Source: Gordonibacter urolithinfaciens (GTDB lineage Bacteria; Actinomycetota; Coriobacteriia; Coriobacteriales; Eggerthellaceae). From it: DNA of 64,000 nt. A model generated the notes under the pieces. It was not told where the DNA came from, did no database searches, and saw nothing but the letters and a program-made list of their open reading frames with translations. Location of the stretch: assembly GCF_900199375.1 (NCBI RefSeq), contig NZ_LT900217.1:2914001-2978000 (forward strand). Direction: 5' to 3'. Positions 5,923 through 48,725 of the stretch are shown here, piece after piece (the stretch's first letter is position 1; every line of letters begins with the position of its first letter). The position numbers and the translations under genes are program-made.

Positions 5923-5999
<77 letters not shown>

Positions 6000-6110: not shown

Positions 6111-6187
<77 letters not shown>

Positions 6188-45739: not shown

Positions 45740-46759
45740 ATGAACGGGGGCGAGACGGCAGGGCCCGTCCCTGGTGCGAGCGTGCGCGCGGGGGAGGCCT
45801 TCTTCCGGCGACGGTTCTGGCGGGGGATCGCCTGCGCGCTCGTGGGCGCGGGGCTCTGGGGCTTCTCGGGGGCGTGTGCGCAGTTCTTGCTGTCGAACTA
45901 CGACATAACGCCCCCGTTCGTCACGGCGGTGCGCATGCTGGGGGCGGGCCTGCTGTTCCTCGTCGTGCTCGCGGTGCGCCAACGCGAGCGGCTGGCCGCG
46001 ATGCTGGCCGACCGGCGCACGCTCGGGCGCCTCGCGGTGTTCGGCGCGGTGGGCCTGTACCTCTGCCAGATCACGTACGCCATCGTCATCGACTACACGA
46101 ACGCGGGCACGGCCACGGTGCTGCAGTGCACGGGCATCGCGTTCGTCATGCTGTTCACGTGCGTCGTCGGGCGGAAGCTGCCGCGGGCGAAGGAGCTCGT
46201 CGGCCTGGTTGCGGCCATGTTCGCCACCTGGCTCATCGCCACGCAGGGCGACCCGTCGGCGCTCTCGCTGCCGTTGCCGGGGCTTGTGTGGGGCATCGCG
46301 AACGGGCTGTCGGTGGCGTTCTACATCATGTACCCGAAGAAGCTGTTCGCCGAATGGGGCAGCTTCGCGGTCACGGGAATCGGCATGCTCGTGGGCGGCG
46401 TCGCGGCTGCGCTCGTGTGGCTGGCGGGCGGGGTCGCGGGTGGCGCGGGGCTCGCGCTGCCCACGCTCGACGCGGCGGGATTCCTTGTGTTCGGGCTGAT
46501 CATCGTCGTGGGTACGTTCGCCGCGTTCGCGCTGTACCTACACGGCGTGTCCATCGTGGGCTCGGTGAAGGGGAGCCTGCTCGGCGCCATCGAGCCGGTG
46601 AGCGCCACGGCGTTCTCGGCCCTGTGGCTGGGAACCGCGTTCTCGGGAGCCGACTGGGCGGGCTTCGTGCTCATGATAGCCATGATCTTCCTGGTCACGG
46701 GCGAGAAGCCGCAGCCGCAGGCAGAAGCGCCCTGCGAGGGCGATTCCTCCCCCACATGA
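45740..46759 (+). CDS. EamA/DMT-family transporter
   Basis: 339 residues with ten hydrophobic helices in two repeats (ALVGAGLWGFSGACAQFLLSNYDITPPFVTAVRMLGAGLLFL, VVGTFAAFALYLHGVSIVGSVKGSLLGAIEPVSATAFSALWLGT). ATG 45740 follows GAGGAGA; an ATG at 45725 overlapping the mfd stop is an alternative. It follows mfd by 11 bp. The stop codon lies inside the first REP copy at 46755-46794. The substrate is unknown. Confidence 0.87.
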   Translation: MNGGETAGPVPGASVRAGEAFFRRRFWRGIACALVGAGLWGFSGACAQFLLSNYDITPPFVTAVRMLGAGLLFLVVLAVRQRERLAAMLADRRTLGRLAVFGAVGLYLCQITYAIVIDYTNAGTATVLQCTGIAFVMLFTCVVGRKLPRAKELVGLVAAMFATWLIATQGDPSALSLPLPGLVWGIANGLSVAFYIMYPKKLFAEWGSFAVTGIGMLVGGVAAALVWLAGGVAGGAGLALPTLDAAGFLVFGLIIVVGTFAAFALYLHGVSIVGSVKGSLLGAIEPVSATAFSALWLGTAFSGADWAGFVLMIAMIFLVTGEKPQPQAEAPCEGDSSPT

Positions 46760-46794
46760 CAAGGGGACATGACAAGGGGACAGGTACCTTGTCA
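46755..46794. repeat. REP element 1 with tandem ATGACAAGGGGAC
   Basis: Core TGACAAGG (46770-46777), a 9-nt loop, CCTTGTCA (46787-46794) forms a hairpin. It is preceded by a tandem copy of ATGACAAGGGGAC (46755-46767 and 46769-46781). The element starts at the stop codon of the EamA gene. It is the exact inverse of the element at 48647-48671. Confidence 0.85.
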
Positions 46795-46851
46795 TGTTTC
46801 AGGAACAGAAGTCGAAGGAAGCGCGCTGGACGGCGCAGAAGGGGAGGCGTA

Positions 46852-47841
46852 ATGAAAAAGGAGCGCCGACGATACCTCGAGTCGTGCGAGGTGTCGCGGC
46901 TCGTCCGCTACGAGCTGGGCGGCGTGGAGCAGAAGGTGACGCTGGAGGGCCGGCGCGCGGACGCGCCCGTGGTGATCTTCCTGCACGGTGGGCCCGGCTC
47001 GCCGTTGCCCGTCTCGGTGGGCACGCGCGGCATGTTCCCGGACCTCGCGGACCGCTACGTGCTGGCAGCATGGGACCAGTTGGGGTGCGGCGCGAACCGC
47101 TGCCGGCTGGGCGACGACGCGTGCATCGATCGCTACGTGGACATGACGCTCGACCTCGTGCGCGCGGTGCGGCGCGACTTCCCCAGCAACGAGGTGAACC
47201 TGCTCGGCGTGTCCTGGGGCTCCATCCTGGCGGCGCGCGCGGCCGCGCGCGAGCCGGGGCTCGTCGACCATGTGGTCACGTACGGGCAGGTGCTCAAGCA
47301 GCTCGGCTTCAACGACGAGGTGTTCGAGGCGCTCGAGCGCTCGGCGATGCCGGAGAAGCTCAAAGGCGAGCTGCGCGCGATCAGAGGGTCGGGCGCGCGC
47401 AACCTCGAGTCGGGCATGCGGCTGGCCGGCTGGGTGCGGAAGTACACCGAGGGCTACCAGGCGCAGGGCGACGGCATGATGCCGGTGGGAGCGTTCGTGC
47501 GCGGCATGCTGGAGAGCCCCGACTACACGCTGCGCGACCTCGTGGCGGCCGTGTCGAACGACTTCTCGAAAAGCGAGCGCCTGTTCGCGGAGATCTTCGC
47601 CGTCGACCTCTCCGACGAGCTCGCGAACATGCGCGTGCCGTACCTCATCGTGCAGGGAGAGACGGACATCGTCACGTCCACCCGTACCATCCGCGCGTTC
47701 GTCACGGAATGCGGCAACCCCAACCTGCGCTACGCCGAGGCCCCGCGCAGCGGGCACATGCCCGGCACGACCGGCATGAACCTCCTGTTCGAGCATCTGT
47801 CCAACTTCGTGACAAAGGGACAGGTTCCTTGTCATAAATAG
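46852..47841 (+). CDS. Alpha/beta hydrolase, proline-iminopeptidase-like
   Basis: 329 residues. FLHGGPGSPLP (oxyanion region) is near residue 41, GVSWGS with the nucleophilic Ser near 122, an acid in VQGETD near 266, and a His in RSGHMPG near 303, a complete catalytic triad layout. GGGGAGG precedes ATG 46852. The last 12 residues (FVTKGQVPCHK) are encoded by a REP copy at 47810-47834, so the natural C-terminus was probably altered by REP insertion. The peptide or ester substrate is unknown. Confidence 0.83.
   Translation: MKKERRRYLESCEVSRLVRYELGGVEQKVTLEGRRADAPVVIFLHGGPGSPLPVSVGTRGMFPDLADRYVLAAWDQLGCGANRCRLGDDACIDRYVDMTLDLVRAVRRDFPSNEVNLLGVSWGSILAARAAAREPGLVDHVVTYGQVLKQLGFNDEVFEALERSAMPEKLKGELRAIRGSGARNLESGMRLAGWVRKYTEGYQAQGDGMMPVGAFVRGMLESPDYTLRDLVAAVSNDFSKSERLFAEIFAVDLSDELANMRVPYLIVQGETDIVTSTRTIRAFVTECGNPNLRYAEAPRSGHMPGTTGMNLLFEHLSNFVTKGQVPCHK
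47810..47834. repeat. REP element 2, within the end of the hydrolase gene
   Basis: TGACAAAGG-N8-TTCCTTGTCA: same core as REP 1 with small changes, in the same orientation. It sits 20 bp before the RAYT start codon and overlaps the coding end of the alpha/beta hydrolase. Confidence 0.82.
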
Positions 47842-47854
47842 AGAGGGAGTCGAG

Positions 47855-48634
47855 ATGCGTACACCGAGAAAACAATGCGAATCCAATGTGTACCATGTGG
47901 TGGCAAGGGGTACAGCACGTCAATTGATCTTCGAAAACGACCCCGACCGTACGTTCTTTCTTCGGCTTCTATCGGAAAAAGCCCATGAGACGAATTGTAC
48001 GATCTACGCGTGGTGCCTTATGGGAAACCATGTTCATGTGCTTGTGAGAGCTCCCATGGAAGATGTTTCGCGGTTCTTCAAATTGGTGTGCGGAAACTAT
48101 GCTCAGGCGTTCAATGTGCGGAATGGGCGCACGGGGCATCTGTTCCAAGAGAGGTTCAAAAGCGAGCCTGTTTCGGACGATTCCTATTTTCAGACAGTGG
48201 TGCGATACATTCACATGAATCCCGAGAAGGCCGGTTTGGCTTCGTGTGCTCAATATCGCTGGAGTAGCTTCAGCGAATATATCGCTTCCAAGCGTTCGCT
48301 GGTGTTGTGCGATACGGACTACGTCTTGGATATTTTTGGCGGCATTGAAGAGTTCATGCGTTTCCATCAGGTAAAAGATGACAATGCGGTTTGCTTGGAC
48401 GCGGACGCGGCGGGGAAGACGAGGCCCATGCGCGACGAAGAGGCGCTTGCCCTTGTGCAGCGGATACTCGAAGAGGTGGATCTTGCTGATTCGAGACCTG
48501 CTGACTTAAAGACGGTCGAAAAGAAGCGCAGAGACGATGCGATTAGAAGAATGAGCAAAGCTGGCTTGTCGATAAGGCAGATAGAGCGTTTAACGGGGAT
48601 CGGTCGCGGTGCGATTCAATATGTGCTTCGATAA
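47855..48634 (+). CDS. REP-associated tyrosine transposase (RAYT, Y1_Tnp family)
   Basis: 259 residues. HxH at 59-61 (GNHVHVL) and the catalytic Tyr at 118 (VVRYIHMNPEKAGL) give the Y1 nuclease core, with the family motifs YHVVARG and HLFQERFKSEPV. A C-terminal segment (KAGLSIRQIERLTGIGRGAIQYVLR) is a helix-turn-helix. Codon use and base composition are clearly richer in A and T than in neighbouring genes, which suggests transfer. REP hairpins lie at its 5' side (two direct) and 3' side (one inverted), the arrangement expected for a RAYT that mobilises REP sequences. GAGAGGGAG precedes ATG 47855. Confidence 0.9.
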   Translation: MRTPRKQCESNVYHVVARGTARQLIFENDPDRTFFLRLLSEKAHETNCTIYAWCLMGNHVHVLVRAPMEDVSRFFKLVCGNYAQAFNVRNGRTGHLFQERFKSEPVSDDSYFQTVVRYIHMNPEKAGLASCAQYRWSSFSEYIASKRSLVLCDTDYVLDIFGGIEEFMRFHQVKDDNAVCLDADAAGKTRPMRDEEALALVQRILEEVDLADSRPADLKTVEKKRRDDAIRRMSKAGLSIRQIERLTGIGRGAIQYVLR

Positions 48635-48646
48635 GTAGCGTATTTA

Positions 48647-48671
48647 TGACAAGGTACCTGTCCCCTTGTCA
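48647..48671. repeat. REP element 3, inverted, downstream of RAYT
   Basis: TGACAAGG-N9-CCTTGTCA, the exact reverse complement of the REP 1 core, 12 bp after the RAYT stop. A GTAG occurs 8 nt before it, but this is not conserved at REP 1. Confidence 0.85.
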
Positions 48672-48725
48672 GGTTCGCCGCGGTACAATGGCGGGGTGCC
48701 TACACGGGATGGAAAGGATGTGTCG

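Follow-up and report, generated by a model that had tools for sequence, protein, structure and literature searches.

A transposase bracketed by its own inverted hairpins, probably a recently acquired TIRtron, in a Gordonibacter genome

Anatomy of the locus

The DNA analysed here, hereafter the window, is a stretch of 64,000 nucleotides of the gut bacterium Gordonibacter urolithinfaciens (contig NZ_LT900217.1, positions 2,914,001 to 2,978,000) from a complete 3.29-Mb genome of this genus (G000), and the subject is a Y1 transposase gene within it, RAYT1, together with the hairpins that surround it (Table 1). RAYT1 is bracketed by hairpin copies 2 and 3, which form inverted 31-nt arms (94%). Copies 1 and 3 both match TGACAAGG-N9-CCTTGTCA exactly, in opposite orientations, a hairpin whose expected number by chance was 0.00 (100 shuffles), and their loop carries GGGGACAG, an instance of the terminal inverted repeat (TIR) motif GGGGWSAS. 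Copy 2 reads TGACAAAGGGACAGGTTCCTTGTCA and has two changes relative to copy 1, one of which breaks a stem pair; it overlaps the 3′ end of an alpha/beta-hydrolase gene and encodes its last residues (VTKGQVPCHK). Inspection of the sequence beside the three hairpins revealed no GTAG (GT[AG]G) foot. An Rfam scan of the window matched only two tRNAs and none of the hairpins, which therefore correspond to no known RNA family.

The initial annotation had described a Y1 transposase with an HxH motif (residues 59-61) and Tyr118, flanked by two direct copies and one inverted copy of the hairpin, in a module AT-richer than its surroundings. The catalytic residues are present, and invariant in alignments of 16 and of 28 relatives. 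Copies 1 and 3 are indeed exact inverses, but the second direct copy is imperfect, and only copies 2 and 3 bracket the gene, copy 1 lying on the far side of the hydrolase gene, away from RAYT1. The low GC content is that of the RAYT1 gene (50.8%, the lowest of any 780-nt stretch in the window), whereas the hydrolase gene (68.4%) resembles the window as a whole (68.6%); GC content at third codon positions is 57 in RAYT1 and 84-93 in neighbouring genes.

Table 1. Features of the RAYT1 locus, in window coordinates.
Feature	Position	Strand	Remarks
Partial tandem copy of the hairpin left arm (ACATGACAAGGGG)	46754..46766	+	Found as a direct repeat; its TGA is the stop codon now ending the upstream EamA gene; tail compared with the sister species G061
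Hairpin copy 1, class C, GGGGACAGGT loop	46770..46794	+	8-bp stem, 9-nt loop; not at the corresponding place in G061
Alpha/beta-hydrolase gene, 329 aa	46852..47841	+	Resident, outside the element; hairpin copy 2 has rewritten the last ~10 codons
Hairpin copy 2, imperfect; left TIR of the transposase	47810..47834	+	Full arm 47810-47840
RAYT1, Y1/HUH transposase, 259 aa	47855..48634	+	NHVH (58-61), Y118 in YIHMNP, C-terminal helix-turn-helix (helices 223-258)
Hairpin copy 3; right TIR	48647..48671	-	Exact inverse of copy 1; full arm 48641-48671

Family and fold of the transposase

RAYT1 carries the class 2 Y---NP signature in the form Y118-IHM-NP, and H59, H61, Y118 and N122 are all invariant in the 28 relatives. 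Its AlphaFold model (pLDDT 89) shows an additional C-terminal helix bundle of the helix-turn-helix (HTH) type, in which the motif GLSxRQIxRLTGIGRG is conserved. Several members give weak matches to HTH_23, HTH_28 or HTH_7, and RAYT1 itself matches none of the Pfam HTH models; for TnpAY1 subclass 2.1, C-terminal domains of the HTH_23, HTH_28 and Bac_DnaA_C types have been reported (Quentin, 2018; PMC6006769).

The nearest solved structure is 4er8, the Escherichia coli TnpA-REP with a bound repetitive extragenic palindromic (REP) hairpin (E 4e-7; E 3e-4 in another search), and the NCBIfam model REP_Tyr_transpos also matches RAYT1. Both matches would suit the canonical domesticated RAYTs known from Pseudomonas and E. 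coli, whose REP families are GTAG-tagged. So would the three single-copy transposases with private hairpin families, inverted doublets and intergenic dispersal described below, which recall the REPIN/RAYT systems of P. fluorescens SBW25 (Bertels and Rainey, 2011; PMC3116915), although those belong to another RAYT group and have a GTAG REP hairpin. A canonical RAYT is nevertheless very unlikely here, given the missing GTAG foot, an NCBIfam score of 71 against a curated cut-off of 80, a hairpin that is not repeated elsewhere in its own genome, and the combination of C-terminal HTH and GGGGACAG loop, which marks subclass 2.1/TIRYT (PMC6006769; PMC3733652).

An ordinary autonomous IS200/IS605 insertion sequence, caught soon after a jump, would explain the foreign composition and recent arrival of RAYT1 and the hairpins at both of its ends, and members such as IS608 and ISDra2 share the HUH-Y1 catalytic core. 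These, however, encode a short protein without HTH, have subterminal hairpins that are not inverted in this way and multiply as a unit, whereas the Gordonibacter genome holds three RAYT-type genes (RAYT1, RAYT2 and RAYT3), each in a single copy and only 35-38% identical to one another, and hairpins in inverted orientation that are scattered apart from the gene. In addition, the NCBIfam IS200 model NF033573 gives RAYT1 24 bits, far under its cut-off of 55, and the IS200-type genes of the family cluster apart as a high-scoring Pfam group, which was out of reach of phmmer searches with RAYT1. This explanation therefore deserves hardly any credence.

Hairpins of related transposases

A scan of named genomes yielded 510 relatives, from which 80 loci in Coriobacteriia, Clostridia and Bacilli were kept. 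Inverted hairpins at both ends, within ~300 bp, were found in 62 of 79 relatives at a score of at least 15 (shuffled controls reached at most 13), and in 26 of the 43 relatives at the family level. Within groups the loop core is constant, being GGGGACGGTTCT in Bacillota and GGGGACAGGT, GGGGACGGGG or GGGACAGTCCC in Coriobacteriia. The stems vary and stay complementary: 43 distinct arms occur among the 62 loci, and the mean pairing length is 6.5 nt for an arm with its own partner compared with 4.0 nt for swapped arms.

The loop type tracks the transposase tree: it changes 18 times, whereas 500 shuffles gave 33.5 changes and a minimum of 27; for Coriobacteriia alone the figures are 15 changes against 20.4 (minimum 15). 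RAYT1, RAYT2 and RAYT3 each have a loop type of their own and occupy three separate regions of the tree.

Co-distribution of class C hairpins and transposases

Strict copies of the class C hairpin were counted in 199 genomes of the order, and they occur in only three: two copies in G000, 46 in G181 and 108 in G200. The transposases of G181 and G200 are 49% and 51% identical to RAYT1, and both are flanked by exact class C repeats, while other close relatives (in G094, G048 and G001) have different loops and no class C. The probability that all three class C genomes would fall among the six best-matching is 1.5e-5, for a cut at six that was set after seeing the list. The weight of this co-distribution lies on G181 and G200, since in G000 both copies belong to the locus itself, one being copy 1 and the other a flanking repeat. 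For class C, hairpin copy number thus follows the cognate transposase, which is the question that the initial annotation had posed. G181 and G200 belong to another family of the same order, and their large class C families include tandem arrays (e.g. G200:C2:7862 and 7917).

Insertion history

In the sister species G061, RAYT1 and all three hairpins are absent from the corresponding locus, as is the class C hairpin from the genome. The hydrolase gene can be regarded as a chromosome resident because its G061 orthologue is 89% identical and adjoins the same EamA gene; the alignment covers residues 1-320 only, and copy 2 supplies the codons beyond. On the right side, homology starts again at 48672, directly after copy 3. 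Reading by eye, ~1.75 kb of other sequence stands in G061 in place of RAYT1, comprising a nucleotidyltransferase-like gene that overlaps the hydrolase stop codon and then further genes (L103, 2494-3700), so that the event was a replacement, or a replacement came after it.

Given the absence of the module from the sister species, and an AT content of the gene that no other 780-nt stretch of the window reaches, RAYT1 appears to be a recent acquisition and not a long-domesticated gene. The initial annotation had called it domesticated, which is not supported for this copy. The term suits RAYT2 and RAYT3 better, because both hold the same sites in both species. A 27-nt direct repeat around RAYT2 (L005) was considered as a target duplication; G061 keeps one side only, and the repeat is suggestive at most. 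Clean empty sites for dispersed hairpin pairs were also sought in G061, where the compared sites proved rearranged around the element, with no definable target-site duplication.

Dispersed doublets and their rearrangement

RAYT2 and RAYT3 are each bracketed by their own inverted hairpin, of class B (GACAAGGGGACGGTTCTCTTGTC) and class A (GACACGGGGACGGGGATGATGTC), respectively. Classes A, B and C all match GACA-N-GGGGAC-RG-N6-TGTC, and a slightly looser general pattern matches the genome 45 times, mostly in inverted doublets, against once for the reversed control. Classes A and B are dispersed as REPIN-like inverted doublets of ~105 nt. In the 12 long doublets the spacers measure 43-45 nt (44±1) and mostly differ in sequence, and in short doublets they measure ~15-20 nt; both classes thus present the dispersed inverted pairs of one hairpin at conserved spacing by which REPINs are recognised. 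A doublet folds into one long hairpin (-48 kcal/mol, z -12.8). Doublets also move as a whole, as G061 carries the L036/L130 doublet at another place (L109; 94% over 105 nt). REPIN copies number hundreds in P. fluorescens SBW25, compared with tens here.

Seven doublets with recognisable spacers are common to G000 and G061, five in the same orientation and two inverted exactly between the arms. For the latter, the spacers score 0.84 inverted against 0.33 direct (L012/L124) and 0.97 against 0.31 (L026/L122), and in both the flanks are collinear between the species, only the 44-nt spacer being flipped. At another two shared sites the species differ in the doublet itself, which is of another class or has an unrelated spacer (L042/L117 and L150/L136); these cases represent recurrent insertion or in-place replacement at the same intergenic site. 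Arms are more alike within one doublet (0.89) than between different doublets (0.78).

Since spacers flip, doublets are replaced and changes in one arm recur in the other, the transposases might actively rework doublets in place, subclass 2.1 enzymes then being site-specific inversion or exchange systems with a fixed 44-nt cassette as their substrate. We regard this as unlikely, if worth keeping in mind; the inversions could arise by host replication slippage across inverted repeats, without a transposase, or may reflect assembly error in G061.

The hairpins flanking RAYT3 (L006, ~1055 and ~1962, compared with L107) changed in concert between the species, from GAGACA..TGTCTC to GTGACA..TGTCAC, core letters included. 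On the outer side of many hairpins the left arm is partially repeated in tandem, one to three times (window 46754-46779; L005 1018-1045; L023, L027 and L040), as if by slippage or repeated processing. In many cases the stop codon of the upstream gene directly precedes the hairpin or comes from it (L026, L036, L038 and L006; window 46754-46766 and 47810-47841).

Interpretation and relation to known systems

With features matched to published descriptions, the locus is very probably a recently acquired TIRtron, that is, an HUH transposase of TnpAY1 subclass 2.1 (RAYT group 1, 'TIRYT') bracketed by its own inverted cognate hairpin. The names TIRYT and TIRtron were given to RAYT-like genes with GGGGWSAS inverted repeats (Di Nocera, 2013; PMC3733652), and the resemblance extends to self-complementarity of some TIRs, to TIR dimers that are dispersed and moderately abundant in a few genomes, and to the coexistence of several TIRYTs with different TIRs, as in Koribacter. 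The parts of that paper considered here make no mention of Actinobacteria, Coriobacteriia or Firmicutes, nor do they describe a constant loop with a drifting stem, a common phylogeny of loop and transposase, or spacer inversion.

Subclass 2.1, with 14.9% of strains, ranks second in size among the TnpAY1 subclasses, has a C-terminal HTH, includes 20 of 26 TIRYTs, and was mapped by Quentin to RAYT group 1 of Bertels et al. (2017) (Quentin, 2018; PMC6006769). RAYT1 shares its class 2 Y---NP signature, long protein and C-terminal HTH. No REP-like sequences were found beside subclass 2.1 genes in that study, whereas most relatives here carry a hairpin pair, which suggests, contrary to the earlier description, that most members in Coriobacteriia and Bacillota have cognate hairpins. 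Our literature searches returned no Eggerthella paper containing 'REP-associated', and the papers using TIRYT do not mention Eggerthella or Coriobacteri; the element seems to belong to a known but thinly described kind that is undescribed in this lineage.

Several observations weigh against a TIRtron whose enzyme disperses its own hairpin. Beyond the locus, no class C hairpin was found in the 3.29-Mb genome, even with three mismatches, and its three copies all lie within 2 kb. By a hand count in the family, at least four general-pattern hairpins (GACA..GGGGACRG..TGTC) occur in 7 of 25 genomes with a RAYT-type gene and in 6 of 35 without. Finally, the complete genome G029 has seven hairpins and no Y1 gene, with no transposase remnant between two of these hairpins. 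The general pattern, tried as a correlate of mere RAYT presence across the 60 family genomes, showed no clear association; it pools unrelated loop classes.

Hairpins in genomes without any RAYT, and the many copies placed like terminators directly behind stop codons, would be expected if the dispersed hairpins were host regulatory or structural palindromes unrelated to a transposase that merely sits near one. Such an origin is very improbable, as in most relatives both flanks bear one and the same private hairpin, loop type tracks the transposase tree, and class C occurs only with class C transposases among the 199 genomes. Dispersed hairpins probably outlive their transposase, and those of G029 are possibly relics left after its loss.

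The proposal of a RAYT with a REP family thus survives in modified form: RAYT1 is an HUH transposase that resembles RAYTs, occurs in a single copy and has cognate hairpins, and it is better described as TIRYT/subclass 2.1 than as a canonical GTAG-REP system. A REP family of RAYT1 in this genome did not materialise, class C being confined to the locus. The hairpin would count against the proposal if it occurred only here, which is the case within G000; class C is nonetheless dispersed in G181 and G200, and related classes are dispersed in G000 itself.

As a mechanism, we propose that the enzyme recognises one strand of the hairpin through the constant GGGGAC-RG loop core, while the stem need only be complementary. 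The loop would be read by sequence and the stem by shape only, because the loop is constant and the stem drifts yet remains complementary. By analogy with the established TnpA-REP and IS608 families, the hairpin would be bound as single-stranded DNA when a replication fork exposes it, and Tyr118 would cut beside it. Single hairpins or inverted doublets would then be copied into further intergenic sites immediately behind genes, and no transposase would serve a loop type other than its own. From the constant 44-nt spacing it seems that something, for instance a dimer, holds two hairpins together. Copy 1 is most simply a hairpin dispersed by RAYT1 itself, judging from its presence only with RAYT1. 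RAYT1 would so far have yielded this one extra hairpin, ~1 kb away, and RAYT2 and RAYT3 would have dispersed their doublet families.

A constant loop core, a free but complementary stem and a loop type matched to the enzyme form a readable rule, and hence a testable recognition code, for which natural cognate pairs are available, such as those of G181 and G200. Within a single genome, the three transposases provide a natural series from newly arrived (RAYT1) to established (RAYT2 and RAYT3).

Other features of the window

The two tRNA genes matched by Rfam lie close together on the reverse strand, at 5926-5999 and 6114-6187, with the same scores.

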